Both the position numbers and the translations under genes were made by a program. Shown here piece by piece: positions 2,114-17,010 of a stretch of DNA of 55,946 bases. The stretch's first letter is position 1. Each line of letters opens with the position of its first letter. Source of the stretch: Betaproteobacteria bacterium (GTDB taxonomy: Bacteria > Pseudomonadota > Gammaproteobacteria > Burkholderiales > SG8-39); NCBI GenBank assembly GCA_025356085.1, contig JANXUV010000229.1:1-55946 (forward strand), read 5' to 3'. The notes under the pieces are model-generated. The model saw nothing but the letters and a program-made list of their open reading frames with translations, did no database searches and had not been told where the DNA came from.

Positions 2114-2178
2114 GGCTAACAACGCGGCGGAGATCACGCGCGCGAGGGCGGCGCGCGCCGGCTAGCTCCACGTTAGAC
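2114..2178 (+). other. attC site 4
   Basis: R'' GGCTAAC (2114-2120) and R' GTTAGAC (2172-2178). Shares the ggcgcgcgccggctagc 3' arm with attC 2 and attC 5. Confidence 0.8.
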
Positions 2179-2202
2179 CTTGCCGCTGGTTGGTGGCGTA
2201 GA

Positions 2203-2220
2203 TATAGCGGATATGCTATA
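2203..2220 (+). promoter_or_regulatory. Candidate HigA-type operator overlapping the cassette promoter -10
   Basis: Perfect inverted repeat TATAGC-ggatat-GCTATA just upstream of higB, overlapping the candidate -10 TATAGT (2217-2222). Confidence 0.5.
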
Positions 2221-2222
2221 GT

Positions 2223-2574
2223 TTGCCGGTGAGCTGGCAGGTCACTTTCTATAGTTCTGATTTCCGAGGTGAACTGCTGCAGCTGCCGGCAGGGTTCGTT
2301 GCCCGCTTCTTGCGGTACGCAGAGCGTATGGAGATTTACGGTCCCAACTTGGGCATGCCCCACACCCGTGCCATGGGTGATGGCCTGTTCGAGCTTCGGC
2401 TCAAGGCGGCTCAAGGCGGCTGAAGGCATCGCGCGGGTGTTCTACTGCACGTTGATTGGGCAGAAGATTGTGATGCTTCACCAGTTCGTCAAGAAGTCCG
2501 AGAAGACTCCGCGAAAAGAACTTGAGATCGCCCGACGGCGAATGAAGGAAACGAAAGATGCGCAAAGAACTTAG
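2223..2574 (+). pseudogene. higB: HigB-like (phage Gp49/RelE superfamily) toxin, frameshifted by a 10-bp tandem duplication
   Basis: ORF 2223-2423 ends ...GLFELRLKAAQGG*. The remainder ...AAEGIARVFYCTLIGQKIVMLHQFVKKSEKTPRKELEIARRRMKE is in another frame. CTCAAGGCGG is duplicated at 2400-2409 and 2410-2419; removing one copy restores a single ORF. Confidence 0.8.
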
Positions 2575-2899
2575 GCACTTTAAGACCCGTGCGCTGGCGC
2601 GCCCCGAGGTTAAACGCGAGTACGATCGGCTCGCAGAGGAGTTCGAGTTTCTTGACGAAATCCTTAAGGCGAGAGCTTCTGTCGGTCTTAGCCAGGCCGA
2701 TGTGGCGGCCCGCATTGGCACGACCCAATCGGCTGTTGCGCGTCTTGAGTCATCGGTCGGAAAGCATTCACCTTCAATCGCCACATTGCAGCGGTACGCA
2801 TCGGCACTTGGTTATCGACTGCAGGTCCGGCTTGTTAAGGGGCAAGGTCTAACCCGGCGCTCAGCCCGGACGCGCGCGAAGGCGGCGCGCGCCGGCTAG
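2558..2899 (+). CDS. higA: HigA-like XRE-family antitoxin; C-terminal tail encoded by attC
   Basis: HTH region LKARASVGLSQADVAARIGTTQSAVARLESSVGKHSPSIATLQRYASALGYRLQV. Tail RSARTRAKAARAG lies in attC. Confidence 0.85.
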   Translation: MRKELRHFKTRALARPEVKREYDRLAEEFEFLDEILKARASVGLSQADVAARIGTTQSAVARLESSVGKHSPSIATLQRYASALGYRLQVRLVKGQGLTRRSARTRAKAARAG

Positions 2900-2912
2900 C
2901 TCCACGTTAGAA
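2847..2912 (+). other. attC site 5, array end
   Basis: R'' GTCTAAC (2847-2853), the exact complement of this cassette's 5' GTTAGAC (2172-2178). The stem sequence is nearly identical to attC 2. The R' side reads GTTAGAA (2906-2912), joining chromosomal DNA. Confidence 0.8.
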
Positions 2913-3962
2913 CGCCAGCACTACCCGGCCAAGGACTTTGCCGGCCTTGAGGTCTTCCAGGATCTGCGTGACCTCGCCGGCGGGACGGGTGCTGACCGGC
3001 GTGGCTTTCAGTTTCTTCTTTTTCGCCAGCGCGACCACTTCCTTCAGTTCCTGCAGGTTGCCGACGTAGGAGCCGACGATGCCGATGCCGCGCTGCGCGA
3101 TCGGCGGCAGCGGATAGACCAGCTCGCCGCCGAACAGGCCGCACAGCACGTAGCGGCCGCCTTTCCTCAGCGCGCCCAGCGCCAGCCCGGCCGTGGCCGG
3201 CATGCCGACCAGGTCGATGGCGCCGGCGAGCTGGCCCATCGCGAGGCCCTGCAGCTTTTGCGCGGCATCCGGCGTGCGCGTGTCCAGCGCAAGCTTGGCG
3301 CCCAGCTTCTTCGCCGCTTCCAGCTTCGCCGGGTCGATGTCGCAGGCGACGATGTTTTTCACGCCCTGCGCGCGCAGCACCGAAACGCAGATGAGGCCGA
3401 GGCCGCCGCAGCCGAGCACCGCCACCCAGTCCTTGGGCCCCAGGTCCGGAAGTTTCGCGACGGCGCTGTAGGTGGTGAGGCCGGAGCAGGCGAGCGTGGC
3501 GGCGAAACCGTCCTCGATGCCGGCCGAATCGACCAGGTATTTCGGGTGCGGGATCAGCACGTGGCTGGCGTAGGCGCCGGGGCGGTTGACGCCGAGAAAG
3601 CGCGAGCCGGAGACGCAATAGTTGTCCAGTCCTTCCTTGCAGACCGGGCACTTGCCGCAGCCGATCCAGGGGAAGACGATTCTCTTCTGGCCGATCTTCA
3701 CGCCTTTTGCTTGCGGACCTATTGCTTCTACGACTCCAAAAGGTTCATGGCCGAGGGTAAACGGCGGAATGCAGCCGCGGTCCTTTACGTAGAATTTTTT
3801 CCCATTGCCCCAGTCGAAGTAGCCGTCCCAGATGTGCAGGTCGGAATGGCACACGCCCGAGCGCGTGACGCGCACCAGAACTTCCGTTCCCTTCGGACGC
3901 GGCGTGTCGTGCAGCACTTTCTGCAGCGGCTTGCCGTGTTCCATGAACTGGTAGCTGATCAT
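2907..3962 (-). CDS. Zinc-dependent alcohol dehydrogenase
   Basis: GVCHSDLHIWDG..., GHEPFGVVEAIG, GCGKCPVCKEGLDNYC, and Rossmann VLGCGGLGL motifs. Confidence 0.92.
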   Translation of the reverse strand: MISYQFMEHGKPLQKVLHDTPRPKGTEVLVRVTRSGVCHSDLHIWDGYFDWGNGKKFYVKDRGCIPPFTLGHEPFGVVEAIGPQAKGVKIGQKRIVFPWIGCGKCPVCKEGLDNYCVSGSRFLGVNRPGAYASHVLIPHPKYLVDSAGIEDGFAATLACSGLTTYSAVAKLPDLGPKDWVAVLGCGGLGLICVSVLRAQGVKNIVACDIDPAKLEAAKKLGAKLALDTRTPDAAQKLQGLAMGQLAGAIDLVGMPATAGLALGALRKGGRYVLCGLFGGELVYPLPPIAQRGIGIVGSYVGNLQELKEVVALAKKKKLKATPVSTRPAGEVTQILEDLKAGKVLGRVVLAF

Positions 3963-5257: not shown

Positions 5258-6148
5258 CTACTGCGGCGTGACTGTGACCCGGACTTCAAGCTCCTGCTCG
5301 CCGCCGCCGAGGATAACGCCGCGCATCGGCGTGACGTCGCTGAAATCCCGGCCCCAGGCGAGGGTGATGTGCTGCTCGCCGACCAGCATGTTGTTGGTCG
5401 GATCGAAATCCACCCAGACCGCATTTCCTCCCGCTCCGCCGCAATACACCGAGACCCAGGCATGCGAGGCGTCGGCGCCGATCAGGCGCGGCTTGCCGGG
5501 CGGCGGCGTGGTCTGGATGTAGCCGCTCACGTAGCGCGCCGGCAGACCCAGCATACGCAGGCAACCGGTCATGAAGTGGGCGTAATCCTGGCAGACGCCG
5601 CGGCGCTTGGCGAGCACTTCACGCAAGGGCGTGGACACGCTGGTCGCTTTCGGATCGAAGGTGAAATCGGCGTGGATGCGGCGCGTGAAATCCAGCGTGG
5701 CGGCCAGCAGGTCGCGCTCCTTGCCGAAGCTCGGCTCGGCGTAGGCCGCCAGGTCGCGGAAAAACTCGATGTGCGGCGATTCGTAAATGAATTGCATCGG
5801 CTCGAGCAGCGCTTGGGAAACCCGGTCGCCGCCGCCGGCGCGCAGCCGGTCGCGCGCCTGCTCCCAGGGTTCGCTCGCCGAGGGGATCTTGCGGGCCAGG
5901 ACTTCGACGCTCGAGCGCGTGTGCACGGTAAGCGAGGCGTGCGGCGCGGCGAGCATGATCTGGGTCACCGGATTGCCGAAATAGTCGTCGCGCGTGCTGG
6001 TTTCGGCCGGCGCCGGCTGCACCTCGATGCGGTGCGCGCCCAACCGCTGGAAATCGACCACGCGCGGCGTCAAATGCAGCAGCTGCTGCGACAGCACCAC
6101 CGGGCTTTCGTAGCTGTACACGGTCTCGTGGAGGATGTCGTATTTCAT
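5258..6148 (-). CDS. Transglutaminase-like protein (bacterial N-domain + catalytic core)
   Basis: MKYDILHETVYSYESPVVLSQQLLHLTPR N-domain. C/H/D triad in RRGVCQDYAHFM, DASHAWVSVY and VDFDPTNN. Confidence 0.92.
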   Translation of the reverse strand: MKYDILHETVYSYESPVVLSQQLLHLTPRVVDFQRLGAHRIEVQPAPAETSTRDDYFGNPVTQIMLAAPHASLTVHTRSSVEVLARKIPSASEPWEQARDRLRAGGGDRVSQALLEPMQFIYESPHIEFFRDLAAYAEPSFGKERDLLAATLDFTRRIHADFTFDPKATSVSTPLREVLAKRRGVCQDYAHFMTGCLRMLGLPARYVSGYIQTTPPPGKPRLIGADASHAWVSVYCGGAGGNAVWVDFDPTNNMLVGEQHITLAWGRDFSDVTPMRGVILGGGEQELEVRVTVTPQ

Positions 6149-6160
6149 TGCGTTGCCGCA

Positions 6161-8686
6161 TCAAGTCGCAAACGTCTGGCGGTTGACTTCCCCCACATGG
6201 GAGAAGAAGCGCAGGCCGAGCTGCTCCGAGAGCCGCGCCGAAGCGTCGTTCCATTCCTGCAGCAGCGCGGCCAGGCGCGCGCTGCCGTGCCGCAGGTCGG
6301 CGCCCGGATCGATTGATTCCAGCGCCAGCACCGCGGCGTCCATCCGCTCCGAGACGCTGTCGGCCGTAGTGTCCGTGATGCCGAAGGCGCCGTACACGCG
6401 GCCGACGAAATCATTCAGGCCTTTCAACTGGAAATACACCGAGCGCGGGTTGTGTACGTCGCGCACCAGCAGGTCCAGCACCGGCAGCCATTCCGGGCGC
6501 GCCATGTAGCGCGAGCGGTAGGTGATGCTCGAATCGGCGAGCTCCAGCACCCAGCCCAGATCCGCGTCCGCCGGCCCGGCCAGCGCCTGCTGCAGCAGGC
6601 TGCAGATGAACTGCAGGCGCTCGATGCGCCGGCCAATGGAGAGGAAGCGCCAGCCGGTGTCGCGCGTCATGCCGTCGAGCGCGAAGCCCGAAAGCGTCAT
6701 GAAGGCGACGATGTCGCGGTCCAGTTCGGCCAGCGTTTCCGACAGCGGGATCTGCCGGCCGCGGTCGCGCTGCAGGCGCCGCGCCATCTGGTTGAGCGTG
6801 CGCCAGTTGTCCCGCGACAGGCGCTCGCGCAATTGCGACGCGACGCGCAGCAGTTCTTTCAGGCCGCCGGCGAGGCCGGGGCGGGTTTCGTCCACCACTG
6901 CGGCGCGCAGGGCGCGCGCGATCGCCACCTCGTTGGCGGGCGCGTCCCTGTCGCTGAAGATGCCGGTCTGCACGAGCATGCCGGCGATGCCGCTCCAGGC
7001 CTTGTCGCGCTCGGCCGGTCCTTCCTCGATCACGCGCGTCAGCGCCACGCGCAGCAGGCGCGCCATGCCATCGCAGCGCTCCGAGTCGCGTCCGAACCAG
7101 TACAGGTTTTCCACCACGCGGCTGGACAGGTTGAGGCCGGTGCGCACCAGGTCCTGGGGCCCGGTTTCCCTCTTCAGCAGGCTGAAGCTGCTGACCGGCC
7201 CGGTCGAGAGCACCCAGGTGTCCTTGCTCGAGCCGCCGCGCTGCATGGAAATCACCCGCGCATCCGTCCCGGTCGCCGCGCGCGTCAGGCCGCCCGGCAT
7301 CACCACGTAGCCGTTCGGGCTGGCGCAGGCATAGACGCGCAGCCCGATGGCGCTGGCCCGCAATTGCGCGCCGGACAACTGCGGGTCGCAGACCGGCGCC
7401 TGCGACAGTTGCACCAGTTCCTGCGCCACGTACATCTGCGGGCGCGCCTTCAGCATCGCGGTGACGCGCGCGCGGCCGCGCTCGTCCAGGTCCTCGCCGA
7501 ACATCGGCTCGACGCGCATTTGCGAATAGGCGCCCTTGATCACCACGCGGTCGAGCTTCGCCACCACGTCGGCGAGCGCCGCCGGTTCGCCGCACCACCA
7601 GGTGGCGACCGAGGGCATCTTCAGCGATTCGCCCAGCAGGCGCTCGCACAGGCGCGGCAGGAAGCCGAGCAGCGCGCCGGTTTCGAGCAGGTTGGAACCC
7701 AGGCCATTTGCCACCAGCACATTGCCGCGCCGCGCCGCTTGCACCAGGCCGGGAATGCCGAGCGCCGAATCGCTGCGCAGCTCGAGCGGGTCGCAGTAGT
7801 CGTCGTCCAGGCGCCGCAGGATCGCATGCACGCGCTGCAGCCCGGAGAGCGTTTTCAGCCAGACCTTGTCCTCGCGCACCGTGAGGTCGCTTCCCTCGAC
7901 TAACGGGAGGCCGAGGTAGCGCGCGAGATAGGTATGCTCGAAATAGGTTTCGTTGAGGGGCCCCGGCGTCAGCAGCACCGTCAGCGGCGCCGCACCGTCG
8001 GCAGGCGCCCAGTGCGCAAGGCTGTCGCGCAGCGTGGCGAAGAAGCCGGCCAGGCGCTGCACGCGCAAGTCGCGGAACAGGTCCGCGTACAGGCGCGATA
8101 TCACCAGCCGGTTCTCCAGCGCGTAGCCCGCGCCCGAGGGCGCCTGGGTGCGGTCGTCCACCACCCACCAGCGCCCGTCGGGGGAGCGCGCGAGATCCGC
8201 GGCATACATATGGAGCAGCACCCCGCCAGGAGATCGGACACCGCGGCAAGGGCGCAGGAAGCCCGCGTGGCCGTAGACCAGCGCCGGCGGCAGCATGCCT
8301 TCGGCGAGCAGCCGCTGCTCGCCGTAGACATCCACCAGCACCTGGTTGAGCAGCGTCGCGCGCTGCTTGATCGCCGCCTCGATGCCGGCCCATTCGTCCG
8401 CCGGCAGGATCAGCGGCAGCGTGTCGAGTTCCCACGGGCGGTCGGCGCCCTCGGAATCCGCGTAGACGTTGTAGGTGACGCCGTTCTCGCGCACCTGGCG
8501 CTGCACCCATTTCACCCGCTCGCGCAGCGCTTCGGGCGAGGCGGCGGCGAGCTGGTCGAACAGCTGCTGCCAGTGCGCGCGCGGAACGTGGGTGCCGTGG
8601 GTGCCGTGGGTACCTTGCGGCGCGCCGAGCATCTCGTCGTAGCGCGCGGTCGCGGCTGGGTAGTTGGCGAGCAGTTCGCGCATCAT
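6161..8686 (-). CDS. Fused circularly permuted type-2 ATP-grasp + alpha-E domain protein
   Basis: N-terminal half is like COG2308 (YDEMLGA..., VLLTPGPLNETYFEHTYLARYLGLPLVEGSDL, VIKGAYSQ). C-terminal half is like COG2307 alpha-E (LSSRVVENLYWFGRDSERCDGMARLLRV). Confidence 0.9.
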   Translation of the reverse strand: MMRELLANYPAATARYDEMLGAPQGTHGTHGTHVPRAHWQQLFDQLAAASPEALRERVKWVQRQVRENGVTYNVYADSEGADRPWELDTLPLILPADEWAGIEAAIKQRATLLNQVLVDVYGEQRLLAEGMLPPALVYGHAGFLRPCRGVRSPGGVLLHMYAADLARSPDGRWWVVDDRTQAPSGAGYALENRLVISRLYADLFRDLRVQRLAGFFATLRDSLAHWAPADGAAPLTVLLTPGPLNETYFEHTYLARYLGLPLVEGSDLTVREDKVWLKTLSGLQRVHAILRRLDDDYCDPLELRSDSALGIPGLVQAARRGNVLVANGLGSNLLETGALLGFLPRLCERLLGESLKMPSVATWWCGEPAALADVVAKLDRVVIKGAYSQMRVEPMFGEDLDERGRARVTAMLKARPQMYVAQELVQLSQAPVCDPQLSGAQLRASAIGLRVYACASPNGYVVMPGGLTRAATGTDARVISMQRGGSSKDTWVLSTGPVSSFSLLKRETGPQDLVRTGLNLSSRVVENLYWFGRDSERCDGMARLLRVALTRVIEEGPAERDKAWSGIAGMLVQTGIFSDRDAPANEVAIARALRAAVVDETRPGLAGGLKELLRVASQLRERLSRDNWRTLNQMARRLQRDRGRQIPLSETLAELDRDIVAFMTLSGFALDGMTRDTGWRFLSIGRRIERLQFICSLLQQALAGPADADLGWVLELADSSITYRSRYMARPEWLPVLDLLVRDVHNPRSVYFQLKGLNDFVGRVYGAFGITDTTADSVSERMDAAVLALESIDPGADLRHGSARLAALLQEWNDASARLSEQLGLRFFSHVGEVNRQTFAT

Positions 8687-8696
8687 GCGCGACGGA

Positions 8697-9464
8697 TTAT
8701 GCCTTGCCGGGAGGGGAAGCCGTCGCCTGCGTGAGCGTCAGCAGGATGTCGGCGTACCAGGCGAAGTTGAGGTCCAGGCTCTCGTCCTGACTGCTGTCTC
8801 GGTTGACGATGTCGAGCTTGGCGGAGTGGACGCCCAGCAGCATCCACGGGAAATCGCCGCGGCCGTCGCCGCCGCTTTTTCCGAGCCCGACTTTGCGCGC
8901 CACCACCGGCGCGCCGCTGGTGCCGCGGTGCATGCGCGCATCGGTGAGGAAGCAGCCCTTGCCCTGGAAGCGGATGCCGAAGGAGGAGGCGATCACCGCC
9001 TGGCGCGCCACCGGCAGGCGGTGCAGCGTGTCGTGCACGCCGAGCGGAAAGCCGACGATCAGCAGCGGGGCGCCCATCTCCACCAGGTCGAGCTTGCGGA
9101 ACAGCTGCGCCGGCTTGAAGGCGTGGTAGAGCATCTTCGCGGGCAGCGCGAGGCGCTCCAGTTCGATCGCCACCACGTCGATGGCACCGGCCGAGTCCGT
9201 GCCCTCGCGCCAGACGGATTTGCCGTCGCGGTACAGCGGGATCGAGAACTTCACCGTGTCGCCGAGATTCTTCTCGTTGACGTGCAGCTCGATCTCGATG
9301 CGGTCCGGATGATGCTCGCTTGCCTCGTCGAGCACCACGTGCCGGCTGGTCACCACGAACAGATTGCCGTCGCGCTCGAAGAAGAACCCGGTCGCGTGGG
9401 TCAGGATCCGGTCCCCGAGCAGCGTGGTGACGCCGGTCACCGCCAGCGGCAGCGATTCGATCAC
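8697..9464 (-). CDS. Trypsin-like serine peptidase domain protein, no evident signal peptide
   Basis: VTSRHVV (His), AIDVVAIE (Asp), HRGTSGAPVV (Ser). GTG start overlaps the TGA of the upstream gene. Confidence 0.8.
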   Translation of the reverse strand: MIESLPLAVTGVTTLLGDRILTHATGFFFERDGNLFVVTSRHVVLDEASEHHPDRIEIELHVNEKNLGDTVKFSIPLYRDGKSVWREGTDSAGAIDVVAIELERLALPAKMLYHAFKPAQLFRKLDLVEMGAPLLIVGFPLGVHDTLHRLPVARQAVIASSFGIRFQGKGCFLTDARMHRGTSGAPVVARKVGLGKSGGDGRGDFPWMLLGVHSAKLDIVNRDSSQDESLDLNFAWYADILLTLTQATASPPGKA

Positions 9465-10279
9465 CGCGGCGCCTTGTCGCGCTCGGGCGGCGCCACCGCC
9501 AGGTCGGCGAAACCGGCGCCGTCCAGCGCGCGCCGCACCGTGCCGTTGGTTTTCCCCTCTTCGATGAACCTGCTCACGTAAGCCAGCGCCGCGGGTCGGC
9601 CCTTGGGCACGGCGACCGCGGTGCCGGCGGCGTGGAAGTGGCCGTCCAGCACGCGCGCGCCGGGCAATTGCGGCGCGAGGCCGCGCAGCGACTCGCGGCC
9701 GAGCGCCACCGCGTCAACTTCGCCCGCCTTCATTTTCGCGACGATCTCATCCACGGTGCGAAAGCCGATCACCTTGGTGTTCTTCAGCGTCGCCATGGCG
9801 GTGCGCGCGGTGGTGGTGTTGGCGATGCCTGCGACGCGGACCCCCGGCTGGTCCACCTCCGCGAGGCTCTTGATCGGCGAGCCGGGTCTCACCATGTAGG
9901 TGCTGGTGGACAGGTAGTAGGCCGGGCCGAACTCGATGATTTTTCTGCGTTCGTCGTCCATCGGCACGAAGGTCACGTCCCATTCGCCTTTCGGGCCGGC
10001 GGCGGTGACTTCGCCAGAATTCGGATAGACGACCAGTTCGAGCGGCACGCCGAGTTTGTCGGCGAGCGCCTGGCCGAGGTTCACCGTCACGCCGCTCGGC
10101 TTGCCGGTAGCGGGATCCTTTGTCGTCCAGAACGCGGAGGGTGAGGCGCCGATACCGACGCCGACCCGCAGTTTGCCAGTGGGCGCGAGCTCGCGGCGCG
10201 CGTCGTCCGGGACGTGACCGGAAACTGCGGCACAAGCCGAGAGCGCGAGCACGAAGACGACGATGAAAGCGCGCGTCAA
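9461..10279 (-). CDS. Solute-binding protein family 3 lipoprotein, orphan
   Basis: Lipobox LALSAC. GKLRVGVGIGASPSAFW..., GEWDVTFVPMDDERRKIIEFGPAYYLSTSTYMV is amino-acid SBP-like. No adjacent permease or ATPase. Confidence 0.85.
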   Translation of the reverse strand: MTRAFIVVFVLALSACAAVSGHVPDDARRELAPTGKLRVGVGIGASPSAFWTTKDPATGKPSGVTVNLGQALADKLGVPLELVVYPNSGEVTAAGPKGEWDVTFVPMDDERRKIIEFGPAYYLSTSTYMVRPGSPIKSLAEVDQPGVRVAGIANTTTARTAMATLKNTKVIGFRTVDEIVAKMKAGEVDAVALGRESLRGLAPQLPGARVLDGHFHAAGTAVAVPKGRPAALAYVSRFIEEGKTNGTVRRALDGAGFADLAVAPPERDKAPR

Positions 10280-10399
10280 GATTCGCCCTTGCCAGGCCTC
10301 ATCAGCAGCCCGGCGCCGATGGCGCCGGTGCGCGAACGATGACGCATATTCAATTCTCCAGAAACCGGAACGGATCCCGATTATTTCACGCGCTGTCGT

Positions 10400-13300
10400 T
10401 CAGCGCCGCAGATCGAGCGTGAACGGGAAGTTCGGGTTGCGCTCTTCGGGGCGCACTTCGATGCGGCCGGGGGTGAGGCCCATTTTCACGAAGCGCGCGA
10501 GGCGGCGCCCTTCGGCGGCGTAGGCGTTGACGGGAAAGTCCTCGTGCGCGCGGCCGCCGGGGTGGGAGACGTGGTACTGGCAGCCGCCCAAGGAGCGGTT
10601 CATCCAGGTGTCCACAAGATCGAAGGCGAGCGGCGCGTGCACGCCGATGGTCGGGTGCAGCGCCGAAGGCGGCGCCCAGGCGCGGTAGCGCACGCCGGCG
10701 ACGAACTCACCGACGTTGCCGGTGGGCGCGAGCGGCACCGGGCGGCCGTTGCAGGCGAGCACGTGCCGGTCTCCGACCAGGCCGGTGGCGCGCACTTGCA
10801 GGCGCTCGACCGACGAATCGACGTAGCGCACGGTGCCGCCGGGCGAGCCTTCTTCGCCCATCACGTTCCAGGGCTCAAGCGCGCCGCGCAGTTCGATGCG
10901 CGCGCCCTGCGAGGAGAACTCGCCCAGGCGCGGGAAGCGGAATTCGAAGTGCGGCGCGAACCACTCCGCCTTCAGGTCGTAGCCGGCCTCGCGCGTTTCG
11001 GCGATCACATCTTCGAAGTCCTGCCAGACGAAATACGGCAGCATGAAGCGGTCGTGCAGGCCGGTGCCCCAACGCGTGAGCCGCGCCGGCCGGTAGGGCT
11101 GCTGCCAGAAGCGGGCGACCAGTGCGCGCATCAGCAGCTGCTGCGTCAGCGACATGCGCGCGTGCGGCGGCATCTCGAAGGCGCGCAGCTCCAGCAGGCC
11201 CAGGCGCCCGGTCGGGCCGTCGGGCGAAAAGAGTTTGTCGATGCAGAATTCGGCGCGGTGCGTGTTGCCGGTAGCGTCAATCAGCAGGTTGCGGAACGCG
11301 CGATCCACGGTCCATGGGGGAATCGGTTTTCCCGACAGTTTTTTTATTTCATTGAATGCAATTTCGAGTTCGTAAATGGAATCGTTTCTGGCTTCGTCGA
11401 TGCGCGGATGCTGGCTGGTCGGTCCGATGAACATGCCCGAGAACAGGTACGACAGCGACGGGTGGTTGTGCCAGTAGGCGAGCAGGCTGGCCAGCAGGTC
11501 GGGCCGGCGCAGGAACGGCGAATCGGCGGGGCTGGCGCCGCCCAGCACGAAATGGTTGCCGCCGCCGGTGCCGGTGTGGCGGCCGTCGACCATGAATTTT
11601 TCGGTGGTGAGCCGGCTGAGGTGCGCCTGCTCGTAGAGAAAGCTGATGCTGTCGACCAGCTCGGGCCAGTTGTTCGCCGGCTGGACGTTCGCTTCCAGCA
11701 CGCCGGGATCGGGCGTGATGCGGCAGACGTCGAGGCGCGGGTCGCGCGGCGGCTCGTAGCCTTCCAGCACCACCGGCACGCCCAGTTCGGCGGCGGTGGC
11801 TTCCACCGCGGCCGCCAGCTCCAGGTAATCTTCGAGTTCTTCGGCGGGCGGCATGAAGATGTAAAGCGTGCCTTTCCTCGCCTCGGCGCAGAGGGCGGTG
11901 CGGGTGATCCAGCCGGCGGATTCCTGCAGGCCGGGCTTCTTGTCCTGCGGCGCGGCCACTTTCACCGCCGGCTTTATCTGCTCGATGACTTTCGGCCGCA
12001 GCGGCAGCGGCTTGTAGATCTGCATCTGGTCCGGCGCGTGCACCCACGGAAAATCGGTCTTCGATGTCCAGGGCAGCGAATCCAGCGGCAGGCGCAGGCC
12101 GAGCGGCGAATCGCCCGGCACCAGGTAGCAGCGCTCGTCGCGCAGGAACCATGAGCCCGTCTGCCAGCCCTTGATGTTTTTCAGAATCGGCAGGACATGC
12201 CCGGCCGTCTTGTCGAGCCCCTCGTGGAATATTTTGCGCAGGCGCGCCCGCTCGAGCGGGTCATCGAGCCGCGAATCGAAGGGATCGACGTTGCCCGGCA
12301 ACTGACGTTCGCGCCACAGGTAGTACCAGGTGTCCTCGAATGCCGGGAAGATGTATTTCGGGTCGAGCGAGAGCCTGGCCGCGAGCGCGCGCAGGAACTG
12401 CGCCGCCTGCGCTTCGGTGGCGCCGTTGTCGCGGCCTTCGTCGGCGAACAGCGCCGCGTTTTCCCAGATCGGCTCGCCGTCCTTGCGCCAGTAGCAGGAC
12501 AACGACCAGCGCGGCAGCTGCTCGCCCGGATACCATTTGCCCTGGCCGTAGTGAAGCAGGCCCTTTGGGGCGTATTTCTGTTTCAGCTTTTGCAGCAGTT
12601 GGGCGCCCAGCTTGCGCTTGTTGGGCCCCATTGCGTCAGTGGACCACTCGGGGTCGTCTCGGTTATCAACCGAAATAAATGTCGGTTCGCCGCCCATGGT
12701 GAGGCGCACGTCGCGCGCGGCCAGGTCGGCGTCCACTTTCAGGCCGAGCGCATTGATGGTGGACCACTGTTCCTCGGTATAAGGCTTGGTGACGCGCGGC
12801 GCTTCCCACACTCGCTCGACGCGCATCAGGTGCGTGAATTCGACTTCCGCCTTGTCGGTGGCGCCGGTGATCGGCGCGGCGCTGCCGGGCTCGGGCGAAC
12901 AGGCGAGCGGGATGTGGCCTTCGCCGGCAAACAGGCCCGAGGTGGCATCCAGGCCGACCCAGCCGGCGCCCGGCAGGTAGGCCTCGCACCAGGCGTGCAG
13001 GTCGGTGAAATCCACGTCGGTACCCGAGGGGCCGTCGAGCGATTTCACGTCGGGCTTGAGTTGGATCAGGTAGCCCGAGACGAATCGCGCGGCGATGCCG
13101 AGGTGGCGCAGCAGCTGCACCAGCAGCCAGCCCGAATCGCGGCAGGAGCCGCTCGCGCTGGTGAGCGTTTCCTCCGGCGTCTGGATGCCGGGTTCCATCC
13201 TGATCAAGTACCGGATGTCCTTCGCCAGGCGCGCGTTCAGCGCCACCAGGAAGTCCACGGTCGGCGTCGGCTCGCGCGGCACGGCATCGAGGTAACGCTT

Positions 13301-13681
13301 GAAGCGCGGCGTCAGCGCGCTGCGCACGAGATAGGGCGCGAGTTCGTGCAGTTGCGCCTCCTCGTACTTGAACGGTGTTTTCTCGGCGCGCGGCTCGAGG
13401 AAGAAGTCGAACGGATTGATCACCGACATTTCGGCCACCAGCTCGACTTCGATCTTCAGCTCGCGCACCGGCTCCGGGAAAACCAGGCGCGCGAGCCAGT
13501 TCGACTGCGGGTCCTGCTGCCAGTTGACGAAATGCTTGGCCGGCGTCACGCGCTGCGCGTAAGACAAGACCGGCGTGCGCGCGTGCGGCGCCGGGCGCAG
13601 GCGCACGATCTGCGGCCCGAGCGCGATCGGCCGGTCGTAGCGGTAGTGCGTGACATGGGTCAGCAGGACGTGGATGGACAT
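10400..13681 (-). CDS. Transglutaminase-like + DUF2126 protein (1093 aa)
   Basis: MSIHVLLTHVTHYRYDRPIALGPQIVRLRPAPHART N-domain. Triad GSCRDSGW, DLHAWCEAY, VGLDATSG. Long DUF2126-like C-terminal region. Confidence 0.92.
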   Translation of the reverse strand: MSIHVLLTHVTHYRYDRPIALGPQIVRLRPAPHARTPVLSYAQRVTPAKHFVNWQQDPQSNWLARLVFPEPVRELKIEVELVAEMSVINPFDFFLEPRAEKTPFKYEEAQLHELAPYLVRSALTPRFKRYLDAVPREPTPTVDFLVALNARLAKDIRYLIRMEPGIQTPEETLTSASGSCRDSGWLLVQLLRHLGIAARFVSGYLIQLKPDVKSLDGPSGTDVDFTDLHAWCEAYLPGAGWVGLDATSGLFAGEGHIPLACSPEPGSAAPITGATDKAEVEFTHLMRVERVWEAPRVTKPYTEEQWSTINALGLKVDADLAARDVRLTMGGEPTFISVDNRDDPEWSTDAMGPNKRKLGAQLLQKLKQKYAPKGLLHYGQGKWYPGEQLPRWSLSCYWRKDGEPIWENAALFADEGRDNGATEAQAAQFLRALAARLSLDPKYIFPAFEDTWYYLWRERQLPGNVDPFDSRLDDPLERARLRKIFHEGLDKTAGHVLPILKNIKGWQTGSWFLRDERCYLVPGDSPLGLRLPLDSLPWTSKTDFPWVHAPDQMQIYKPLPLRPKVIEQIKPAVKVAAPQDKKPGLQESAGWITRTALCAEARKGTLYIFMPPAEELEDYLELAAAVEATAAELGVPVVLEGYEPPRDPRLDVCRITPDPGVLEANVQPANNWPELVDSISFLYEQAHLSRLTTEKFMVDGRHTGTGGGNHFVLGGASPADSPFLRRPDLLASLLAYWHNHPSLSYLFSGMFIGPTSQHPRIDEARNDSIYELEIAFNEIKKLSGKPIPPWTVDRAFRNLLIDATGNTHRAEFCIDKLFSPDGPTGRLGLLELRAFEMPPHARMSLTQQLLMRALVARFWQQPYRPARLTRWGTGLHDRFMLPYFVWQDFEDVIAETREAGYDLKAEWFAPHFEFRFPRLGEFSSQGARIELRGALEPWNVMGEEGSPGGTVRYVDSSVERLQVRATGLVGDRHVLACNGRPVPLAPTGNVGEFVAGVRYRAWAPPSALHPTIGVHAPLAFDLVDTWMNRSLGGCQYHVSHPGGRAHEDFPVNAYAAEGRRLARFVKMGLTPGRIEVRPEERNPNFPFTLDLRR

Positions 13682-13694
13682 GGGTTGTTCCGGG

Positions 13695-14672
13695 CTAGGC
13701 GGTGCCCAGATAGGCCTTCTGAATGCGGCCGCCCAGTTCGTGCATGTCGGCGATGCATTCGGTCAGGTACTCGTGCAGGCCACCCTGGAAGATTTCCTCG
13801 ATGTCGGCGTGGGTGAGGCGCACGAAGATTTCCCCCGCCAGCCGGCGCGCGGCGCGGTCGTGCTGGCCCTGCAGGCGTTCCATCGCCTGCGTCACCTGCT
13901 CGAAGCAGGCGGCCAGCGATCGCGGCATGCGCCGTTCGAGGATCAGCAGCTGCGCCACCTTTATGGGGTAGATCTGGTCGCGGTAGAGGGCGCGGTAGGT
14001 CTCGAACGAGGATACCGAGCGCAGCAGCGCCGTCCACTGGTAGTGGTCCAGCGCGCCGCCGACATCTTCCACCGACGGCAGACGCACGTGGTATTTCACA
14101 TCCAGGATGCGCGCGGTGTTGTCCGCGCGCTCGAGAAAGGTGCCGAGGCGCGAGAAATTGAACGCCTCGCCGCGCACAATGGTGCCGTAGGTGACGCCGC
14201 GGAACAGGTGCGAGCGTTCCTTCACCCAGTCGAAGAAATCGGTCGCCGCGGCGCCCACCAGGTCAGCGCGCCGCACCCGCTTCATCTCGATCCAGGTGGC
14301 GTTCAGGGTTTCCCACATCTCGGAGGTGATTTGCCAGCGCACCGCGTGTGCGTTTTCGCGCGCCAGACGCAGGCAGCTGTAGATCGAGGACGGGTTTTCC
14401 GGGTCCAGGGCGAGGAAATCCACCAGCCCCCGCAACGTTGCCGGCTTCTTCTGGCTGAAGTAGCGCTCGCCGCTGTCGGTGATGGTGAGCGGCGCGAGCA
14501 GGTTCTGTTCGCGCGTCTCCTTGGTGCCGAACAGCACCATGGTCGAAGTCACGCCGAGGATGCGCGCCATGTTCTCGGCGCGCTCCATCTGGCGACTCAT
14601 CCAGTAAATCCGGTCGGCAACCCTCGAAAGCATCAGCAGGCAAAAATCGAAAGCATTCGATTTTTCATTCAA
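13695..14672 (-). CDS. Alpha-E domain-containing protein
   Basis: MLSRVADRIYWMSRQMERAENMARILGVTSTMVL is the characteristic alpha-E start. Confidence 0.92.
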   Translation of the reverse strand: MNEKSNAFDFCLLMLSRVADRIYWMSRQMERAENMARILGVTSTMVLFGTKETREQNLLAPLTITDSGERYFSQKKPATLRGLVDFLALDPENPSSIYSCLRLARENAHAVRWQITSEMWETLNATWIEMKRVRRADLVGAAATDFFDWVKERSHLFRGVTYGTIVRGEAFNFSRLGTFLERADNTARILDVKYHVRLPSVEDVGGALDHYQWTALLRSVSSFETYRALYRDQIYPIKVAQLLILERRMPRSLAACFEQVTQAMERLQGQHDRAARRLAGEIFVRLTHADIEEIFQGGLHEYLTECIADMHELGGRIQKAYLGTA

Positions 14673-16143
14673 CCACCCAGGTATCTTTCGTTCCCCCGCC
14701 CTGGGACGAATTCACGACCAGCGACCCTTCCTTCAGCGCGACGCGCGTGAGGCCGCCGGGCACCATCTTCACTTCCTTGCCCGAGAGCACGTAGGGCCGC
14801 AGGTCGACATGGCGCGGCGCCACGCCGCGCTGGACGAAAGTGGGGCAGGTGGAGAGCGACAGCGTCGGCTGCGCGATGTAGTTGGCCGGGTTGGCTTTCA
14901 GCAGCTTGCGAAAAGCCGTGAGCTCCTTCGGCGTCGCCGCCGGACCGACCAGCATGCCGTAGCCGCCCGAGCCCTGCACTTCCTTGACCACCATCTCGGC
15001 GAGATTCTCCAGAACGTGCGCGAGATCCTTCGGGTCGCGGCACTGCCAGGTCGGCACGTTGGCGAGGATCGGCTCTTCCTTGAGGTAGAACCTGATCATT
15101 TCCGGCACGAACGGATAGGTGGACTTGTCGTCCGCGACGCCGGTGCCAACCGCGTTGGCGAGCGACAGATTGCCCGCGCGGTAGGCCGCGAACAGTCCCG
15201 GCACGCCCAGCATCGAGTCCTTGCGGAAGGCTTTCGGATCCAGATAGGCGTCGTCGATGCGGCGGTAGATCGCGTCCACGCGCTGGCGGCCGCTGGTGGT
15301 GCGCATGTAGACCGTGTTGTCCTTGACGAACAGGTCCGGTCCTTCCACGAGTTCCACGCCCATCTGCTGCGCGAGGAAGGCATGCTCGAAGTAGGCGCTG
15401 TTGTGCTGGCCCGGCGTGAGTACCGCCACCATCGGGTCGCGCACGCGCGGCGGCGCCCCGGCGCGCAGCGTCTCCAACAGCATCGCCGGGTAGTGCTCGA
15501 CCGGCAGTACAGTCTGGCGCTCGAAGAGTTCCGGAAAGAGCCGCATCATCATCTTGCGGTTCTCGATCATGTACGACACACCCGACGGGGTGCGCAGGTT
15601 GTCCTCGAGCACGTAGTACTTGCCGTCGGAGTGGCGCACGAGGTCGATGCCGGCGATGCTCGAGTAGATGCCGTTCGGCAGGTCGATGCCGCGCATTTCC
15701 TTCTGGTAGCCCGGGTTCTTCAGCACCTGCTCGGGCGGAATCACGCCCGCCTTGATGATCGCCTGCCCGTGGTAGATGTCCTCAAGGAAGCGGTTCAGCG
15801 CATTGGCGCGCTGCGCCAGGCCCTTCGCCAGTTCGTCCCATTCCGTCTTGGGGATGACGCGCGGGATGGTGTCGAAGGGGATCAGCCGCTCCGCGCCCGC
15901 CTCGTCGCCGTAGACGGCGAAGGTGATGCCGACGCGGTGGAACAGCAGGTCGGCCTCGCGGCGCTTCTCGGCGACCCGCTTGGCGGGGGTCTTGGCGAGC
16001 CACTCCGCGATTGGGCCGAAGTGGGGCCGCACCTTGCCGTTGGCGGCGCGCATTTCATCGAACTGTTGACGTCGTTCCAAGCGGATTCCCCTCTCAGGAA
16101 CGAGCAAGACACGTGCCAGGGAACGTCGATCTGCCCCGCGCAA
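14665..16143 (-). CDS. Circularly permuted type-2 ATP-grasp protein
   Basis: QFDEMRAANGKVRPHFGPIAEWL..., DLLFHRVGITFAVYGDEAGAERLIPFDTIPRV, VLTPGQHNSAYFEHAFLAQQMGVELVEGPDLFV, SQGGGTKDTWV. Start codon uncertain. Confidence 0.92.
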   Translation of the reverse strand: MRGADRRSLARVLLVPERGIRLERRQQFDEMRAANGKVRPHFGPIAEWLAKTPAKRVAEKRREADLLFHRVGITFAVYGDEAGAERLIPFDTIPRVIPKTEWDELAKGLAQRANALNRFLEDIYHGQAIIKAGVIPPEQVLKNPGYQKEMRGIDLPNGIYSSIAGIDLVRHSDGKYYVLEDNLRTPSGVSYMIENRKMMMRLFPELFERQTVLPVEHYPAMLLETLRAGAPPRVRDPMVAVLTPGQHNSAYFEHAFLAQQMGVELVEGPDLFVKDNTVYMRTTSGRQRVDAIYRRIDDAYLDPKAFRKDSMLGVPGLFAAYRAGNLSLANAVGTGVADDKSTYPFVPEMIRFYLKEEPILANVPTWQCRDPKDLAHVLENLAEMVVKEVQGSGGYGMLVGPAATPKELTAFRKLLKANPANYIAQPTLSLSTCPTFVQRGVAPRHVDLRPYVLSGKEVKMVPGGLTRVALKEGSLVVNSSQGGGTKDTWVVE

Positions 16144-17010
16144 TCAGCCCTGGGGCTCGTCCTGCGGATCCGTGTTCGGCTTGCCCGCCGCGCGCCGGTA
16201 TTCCGAGGGCGGGATGCCGACCTGCTGCTGGAAGAAGCGGGTGAAATTGGATTGCGCCGAGAAGCCCAGCTCGGCCGACACCTCGGCGATTTTGGCGCTG
16301 CCCGAGGAAAGCTTGGCGATCGCCGACTCGACGCACAGCAGGTCGAGATAGGAGCGCGGCGAGCGGCCGGTGCTGGTCTGGAACAGGTCGTAGAAGCGCG
16401 AGCGCGACAGGCCGACCTGGCTGGCCAGGTCGTTCATGTTCACGTCCTTGTTCGGGTGCGCGCGCAGCAGCGCGAGCGCCTTGCGGATGCGGTTGTCGGC
16501 GAACGGCGAGCCGCGCCACATGCGCGCGCCGGACTGGCGCCGCGCGAGATAGGTTTCCACGATCGACAGCATCAGTTCCTGCAACATGAATTCAAGCCGC
16601 TCGTGGGAGAGGAACTGGTCGTTCAGCACTTCGACCACCAGCGTGTCGGCGAGCTGGCGGATGCGCGCGGTGATGTTCTCGCGCGACGGGCCGAAGGCGC
16701 GGCTGGCCGCGTCGAACACCGCCGGGAAGCTGCCGCGCAGCCAGTCGGTGGACGCATGAAAGCACAGTAGTTGCGCAGAAGTCGTACCGGGCTCGAAAAC
16801 GGTTTCGCTGGTCGCGCCAGGGCTCAGGAACAGCAGGCTCTCGCGCGTCAGGCGCAGCGGCACGCCGTCCACCCACAGGTCGAGATCGGCGCCCTCTTGC
16901 TTGACCACGATCAGGGGTACCGGGCTGGTCTGCGGGGGGTCGCCCGCGGCCGCCTCGATCAACTGCAGGCGCCCGAAACTGCCGTCGAATACGCGAATGG
17001 GGCGGGCCAT
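16144..17010 (-). CDS. AraC-family transcriptional regulator
   Basis: C-terminal double HTH: VNMNDLASQVGLSRSRFYDLFQTSTGRSPRSYLDLL...IAEVSAELGFSAQSNFTRFFQQQVGIPPSEYRR. Confidence 0.93.
   Translation of the reverse strand: MARPIRVFDGSFGRLQLIEAAAGDPPQTSPVPLIVVKQEGADLDLWVDGVPLRLTRESLLFLSPGATSETVFEPGTTSAQLLCFHASTDWLRGSFPAVFDAASRAFGPSRENITARIRQLADTLVVEVLNDQFLSHERLEFMLQELMLSIVETYLARRQSGARMWRGSPFADNRIRKALALLRAHPNKDVNMNDLASQVGLSRSRFYDLFQTSTGRSPRSYLDLLCVESAIAKLSSGSAKIAEVSAELGFSAQSNFTRFFQQQVGIPPSEYRRAAGKPNTDPQDEPQG

Follow-up and report, generated by a model that had tools for sequence, protein, structure and literature searches.

A trypsin-like serine protease that has repeatedly landed next to amidoligase/transglutaminase gene sets, and the unrelated lipoprotein beside it

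Loci that group circularly permuted ATP-grasp (CP-ATP-grasp), Alpha-E and transglutaminase genes are known as the Anbu operon or COG2308-COG2307-transglutaminase locus (Fuchs 2017, PMC5666114; Piasecka 2018, PMC6376114), an amidoligase locus according to Iyer 2009 as cited in those two papers. The window analysed here, a contig of 55,946 nucleotides from a genome of the order Burkholderiales (GCA_025356085.1), likewise groups CP-ATP-grasp, Alpha-E, transglutaminase and DUF2126 genes. It differs in that its genome is devoid of Anbu and in that a serine protease gene and a lipoprotein gene are added between the DUF2126 gene and a second, fused ATP-grasp/Alpha-E gene. This raises the question of what the two additional genes do in such an operon. 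The initial annotation of the locus proposed that the protease fills the peptidase role of the missing Anbu, and that the lipoprotein captures the product or the precursor.

On the minus strand, the genes run in the order AraC-family regulator, ATP-grasp, Alpha-E, transglutaminase+DUF2126, lipoprotein, protease, fused ATP-grasp/Alpha-E and transglutaminase (Table 1), bringing together in one window the CP-ATP-grasp (PF14403/PF04174), Alpha-E (PF04168) and transglutaminase genes of the known operon. The annotated coordinates and GTGA overlap of the protease and lipoprotein genes were recovered, both on the minus strand, and the Pfam assignments of the neighbours agree with their placement between the DUF2126 gene and the fused gene. 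The overlap is of 4 bases and only 10 bp separate the protease stop codon from the fused gene, which suggests co-translation. No ABC permease or ATPase gene was found in the amidoligase cluster, and in this sense the description of the lipoprotein as an orphan holds. A mini-ORF of 23 codons (10276-10347, minus strand), rich in Arg and carrying a Shine-Dalgarno-like GGAG motif, is also present. Its TGA shares bases with the TTG start codon of the lipoprotein gene; the mini-ORF is possibly a leader or a means of translational coupling for this gene, and was not seen in G103, a genome from another genus of the same family.

Table 1. Features of the amidoligase/transglutaminase operon and its surroundings in the window.
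Feature	Position	Strand	Basis
Transglutaminase-like protein (Bact_transglu_N + Transglut_core)	5258-6148	-	Pfam
Fused circularly permuted ATP-grasp + Alpha-E protein (CP_ATPgrasp+Alpha-E)	6161-8686	-	Pfam
Trypsin/HtrA-fold serine protease (predicted fold), Trypsin_2, 255 aa, GTG start	8697-9464	-	ORF list + Pfam
Family-3 solute-binding lipoprotein, 272 aa, TTG start, lipobox LSAC	9461-10279	-	ORF list + Pfam
Transglutaminase + DUF2126, putative amidoligase	10400-13681	-	Pfam
Alpha-E protein (PF04168)	13695-14672	-	Pfam
Circularly permuted ATP-grasp protein	14665-16080	-	Pfam; inferred start choice
Sigma-54 (-24/-12) promoter-like site TGGCACGTGTCTTGCT	16103-16118	-	consensus match, no mismatch
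AraC-family regulator, directly upstream of ATP-grasp gene	16144-17010	-	Pfam

The protease matches Trypsin_2 (PF13365) with 39.3 bits against a curated cut-off of 27.6 (1.4e-9), and this is the sole Pfam domain found in its 255 residues. Twenty homologues with 45-65% identity share its N-terminus and keep H42, D96 and S183 unchanged, and 32 more agree; no residue of the triad varies across the alignments of 21 and 33 sequences. Since the homologues begin at the same residue, the missing signal peptide is real and the enzyme is predicted to be cytoplasmic; the annotation of a His-Asp-Ser protease devoid of a signal peptide was thus borne out. A sequence search of the PDB returned no match for the protease. 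Its AlphaFold model, of moderate confidence (pLDDT 79, pTM 0.83), gave the DegP/DegS protease domains as best PDB matches in Foldseek (E 2.5e-9, TM about 0.5), pointing to a chymotrypsin-like fold of the HtrA family. The window protease would therefore share its fold, together with the His-Asp-Ser triad, with the protease domain of DegS, DegP and DegQ, but it differs from these HtrA-type enzymes by the absence of a PDZ domain and of a signal peptide, and by an identity of ~16%.

More than 580 relatives of the protease were found in public genomes, mostly of Betaproteobacteria but also of other groups. At ~100 loci, no neighbour family recurs beyond close relatives, and the protease is mostly a stand-alone gene; an amidoligase neighbour is absent at most homologues. 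The recurrent neighbour ORFs first found beside stand-alone proteases were rejected, being antisense to the protease itself. A gene tree of 101 proteases intermixes distant taxa, which together with the stand-alone loci suggests that the gene moves horizontally. The junction between the DUF2126 gene and the fused gene is also variable. In G103, the cluster reads alcohol dehydrogenase, O-acetylhomoserine sulfhydrylase, transglutaminase, fused gene, aldo/keto reductase and lipoprotein, followed further on by DUF2126, Alpha-E and ATP-grasp, whereas in G180 and G271 the junction is empty and the fused gene comes directly after DUF2126. Hence the junction is a cargo site, which the protease entered later or occupies as one alternative. 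At the G103 locus (L205, 9102-10979), the aldo/keto reductase stands in the place of the protease, between the lipoprotein and the fused gene, and a gene for a gamma-glutamyltranspeptidase is located ~3 kb past the transglutaminase. G241, from a different species of the window's genus, has a contig end at which the N-terminal end of the protease is found next to the fused gene.

The absence of conserved neighbours at most of these loci, the mixed tree and the different cargo in sister genera are what would be expected of a neutral passenger, i.e., a mobile stand-alone protease inserted by chance in a permissive junction with no functional tie to the operon. This is the strongest rival to a functional link, although it appears rather unlikely in view of the suggested co-translation and of the recurrence of the arrangement. 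In five other genomes, the protease directly adjoins an amidoligase set (gap <300 bp), each time in a different arrangement: downstream of Alpha-E (L055, genome G248), upstream of and co-directional with the ATP-grasp gene (L075), in divergent orientation to the ATP-grasp gene (L191, genome G390) or, in Ramlibacter, to the fused gene (L133), and in convergent orientation to the terminal transglutaminase (L073). At L104, it lies 6 kb from the set. By a rough estimate from cluster size and genome size, chance alone would yield ~0.4 direct adjacencies among ~108 loci (Poisson ~6e-5). On the tree of 101 proteases, the adjacent rows (the five, L104 and the window) require 5 changes of state, of which supported branches force at least 3; direct adjacency is found on at least three separate branches. 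Two loci with a single transglutaminase gene beside the protease (L101 and L121) were left out of the count because such paralogues are common; at L101, from a gammaproteobacterial MAG, the protease homologue is closely preceded, on the same strand, by the end of a lone transglutaminase-core gene (2154-3729).

The passenger reading is further opposed by co-occurrence in two samples. Among 300 genomes of the order, which are phylogenetically non-independent, Alpha-E was detected in 25 of the 26 with the protease and in 147 of the 274 others (p = 6e-6). The difference persists in genomes of at least 3 Mb (25/26 versus 104/151, p = 0.003; sizes compiled by hand, a few missing), and Alpha-E was present in 8 of 9 further genomes of the class that carry the protease (p = 2e-4). 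The lipoprotein family, used as a control, shows a weaker association (36/47 versus 70/143, OR 3.4); because this control is also enriched, part of the protease/Alpha-E co-occurrence is due to genome size and lifestyle. Together, adjacency and co-occurrence show that the association of the protease family with amidoligase sets exceeds chance expectation.

That the protease stands in for Anbu as peptidase in this amidoligase system is less probable. The annotated absence of Anbu at this locus extends to the whole window genome (96.7% complete), in which neither PF00227 nor an Anbu profile (A2) gave a match; the profile, for which seven Anbu proteins with matches to solved Anbu structures were used, is positive in 160 of the 300 genomes of the order. 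As the window genome (G000) is without any PF00227 match, HslV is missing besides Anbu, a lack shared by G180 and by the three remaining genomes sampled from the genus. Anbu was not found in the family members G103, G143, G180 and G271 either, and most sampled genomes of the window's family are without it, protease or not. In the order, Anbu follows Alpha-E closely (155 of 172 Alpha-E genomes) and is missing slightly more often from protease carriers (5/25 versus 12/147, p = 0.08). Together with the position of the protease within the operon, this would favour a replacement; however, the excess is not significant, and still less so once the window genome is removed (p = 0.25), and Anbu is retained by 20 of the 25 carriers, against 135 of the 147 genomes devoid of the protease. 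Furthermore, a single cluster of 8 kb in G248 encodes both Anbu and the protease, together with DUF2126, ATP-grasp and Alpha-E. G103 has neither Anbu nor the protease, yet its amidoligase set is intact, and the protease genes of G180 and G271 show no linkage to the set; since these three genomes, with no protease in the cluster, are also devoid of Anbu, the loss of Anbu is not a consequence of protease gain. The coexistence in carriers, the G248 cluster and the pattern within the window's family indicate that replacement is not a rule. As a general rule it is largely refuted, the proposed mutual exclusivity of Anbu and the protease was rejected across the 300 genomes, and for the window itself a replacement appears improbable. 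In addition, Anbu displayed no peptidase activity in assays (PMC6376114), which makes the peptidase role of the locus itself uncertain.

Still less probable is a single-gene anti-phage protease located here by accident. The protease matches the PADLOC phage-defence candidate PDC-S45 over residues 3-216 (3.1e-20), and its distribution is patchy and mobile, but PDC-S45 is itself merely a candidate model, no defence family recurs among the 106 nearest neighbour ORFs of the protease homologues, and the family is essentially absent from viral contigs.

The lipoprotein matches SBP_bac_3 with 51.6 bits against a curated cut-off of 26.4 (1e-13). Its nearest PDB entries are an ancestral cyclohexadienyl dehydratase and AncQR, which it matches over the whole domain; the resemblance to cyclohexadienyl dehydratase, one of fold family, was not taken as a sign of that activity. 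In amino-acid-binding family-3 proteins, an acidic residue contacts the amino group of the ligand. The lipoprotein keeps the Arg that binds the ligand carboxylate, but it differs from these binders in that the acid is gone, TDN of AncQR aligning with LGR (ALGRES/ALGKES in close relatives), and in the absence of a permease. The replacement of the acid by Gly-Arg in this subfamily argues for a ligand other than an ordinary amino acid.

The closest relative of the lipoprotein (79% identical) is that of G103, in a syntenic cluster devoid of the protease. Adjacent contig numbers seemed to link the lipoprotein of G052 to a fused gene, but contigs are sorted by length and such numbers imply no linkage. 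Although the 4-base overlap would suit a single capture-and-cleave unit, this idea can be practically dismissed, as no lipoprotein lies close to ~100 other protease homologues, no second locus carries both genes, the G103 lipoprotein does without the protease, and a predicted outer-membrane-type lipoprotein and a predicted cytoplasmic enzyme are unlikely to hand over a product directly. Of the initial interpretation, the missing Anbu and a tie between protease and amidoligase sets therefore stand, whereas the replacement of Anbu and the protease-lipoprotein pair do not.

The operon offers a further clue in its promoter region. The site TGGCACGTGTCTTGCT, read on the minus strand from 16118 to 16103, has 0 mismatches to TGGCACG-N4-TTGCW. 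The mechanical ORF of the ATP-grasp gene opens too early, at TTG 16143, and covers this site; the true start is likely TTG 16080 or ATG 16053, downstream of it. Across the ATP-grasp starts of eight loci, the best sigma-54 sites total 15 mismatches, whereas 3000 random placements averaged 32 and never went below 24. Comparable sites are located ahead of the ATP-grasp gene in G180, G103, G390, G248 and L075. The window genome contains rpoN. In Burkholderia cenocepacia H111, DUF404/407, DUF403 and two transglutaminase-like proteins were found within the NtrC/sigma-54 regulon (PMC5491218), and Anbu is reported to be up in nitrogen-limited Pseudomonas putida (PMC5666114). The perfect site, a promoter match new to this study, agrees with the published control of the Burkholderia counterpart, and its recurrence across loci points to nitrogen-limitation control of the whole system. 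We infer that the signal is nitrogen, and that the operon is probably switched on by nitrogen starvation. Lying downstream and in the same direction, the protease and lipoprotein genes of the window are probably under the same sigma-54 control, whereas at L075 and L191 the protease lies outside the sigma-54-controlled unit.

The reading that we favour, at roughly even odds (about 0.5), is that the window encodes, as an accessory to a nitrogen-limitation, sigma-54-type amidoligase/transglutaminase operon without Anbu, a cytoplasmic protease brought in as junction cargo, with the lipoprotein being independent. The ATP-grasp, DUF2126 and transglutaminase enzymes would attach or condense amino groups on cytoplasmic peptides or proteins, and the protease, a putative enzyme judged from its conserved triad, would act on the same substrates, either to trim or remove modified peptides or to provide precursors. 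The junction would have taken up the lipoprotein, which is shared with the sister genus, and, in the window's genus, a protease of a mobile family. The lipoprotein would work on its own in the periplasm on a carboxylate-type ligand, and the protease would not replace Anbu in general. The accessory-peptidase mechanism is drawn by analogy with RimB-RimK and RloA-RloC, in which a peptidase gene likewise lies beside an ATP-grasp gene and which provide a precedent for such a pairing (PMC12239564); however, peptidases of the RimB/RloA type are retropepsin-like aspartic enzymes and the window enzyme is a serine protease, and the ATP-grasp class also differs.

More broadly, it is tentatively suggested that this widespread family of HtrA-fold proteases may be an unrecognised partner of the Anbu-type system, working beside Anbu and trimming or removing amide-linked products in nitrogen limitation. 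The Anbu/amidoligase locus is found in more than half of the sampled genomes of the order. The present analysis provides two handles on its function, namely a protease whose occurrence follows that of the locus, and a sigma-54 promoter from which the likely inducing condition can be read; these point to nitrogen-limitation induction, and to amide-modified peptides cut by the protease as a candidate readout.
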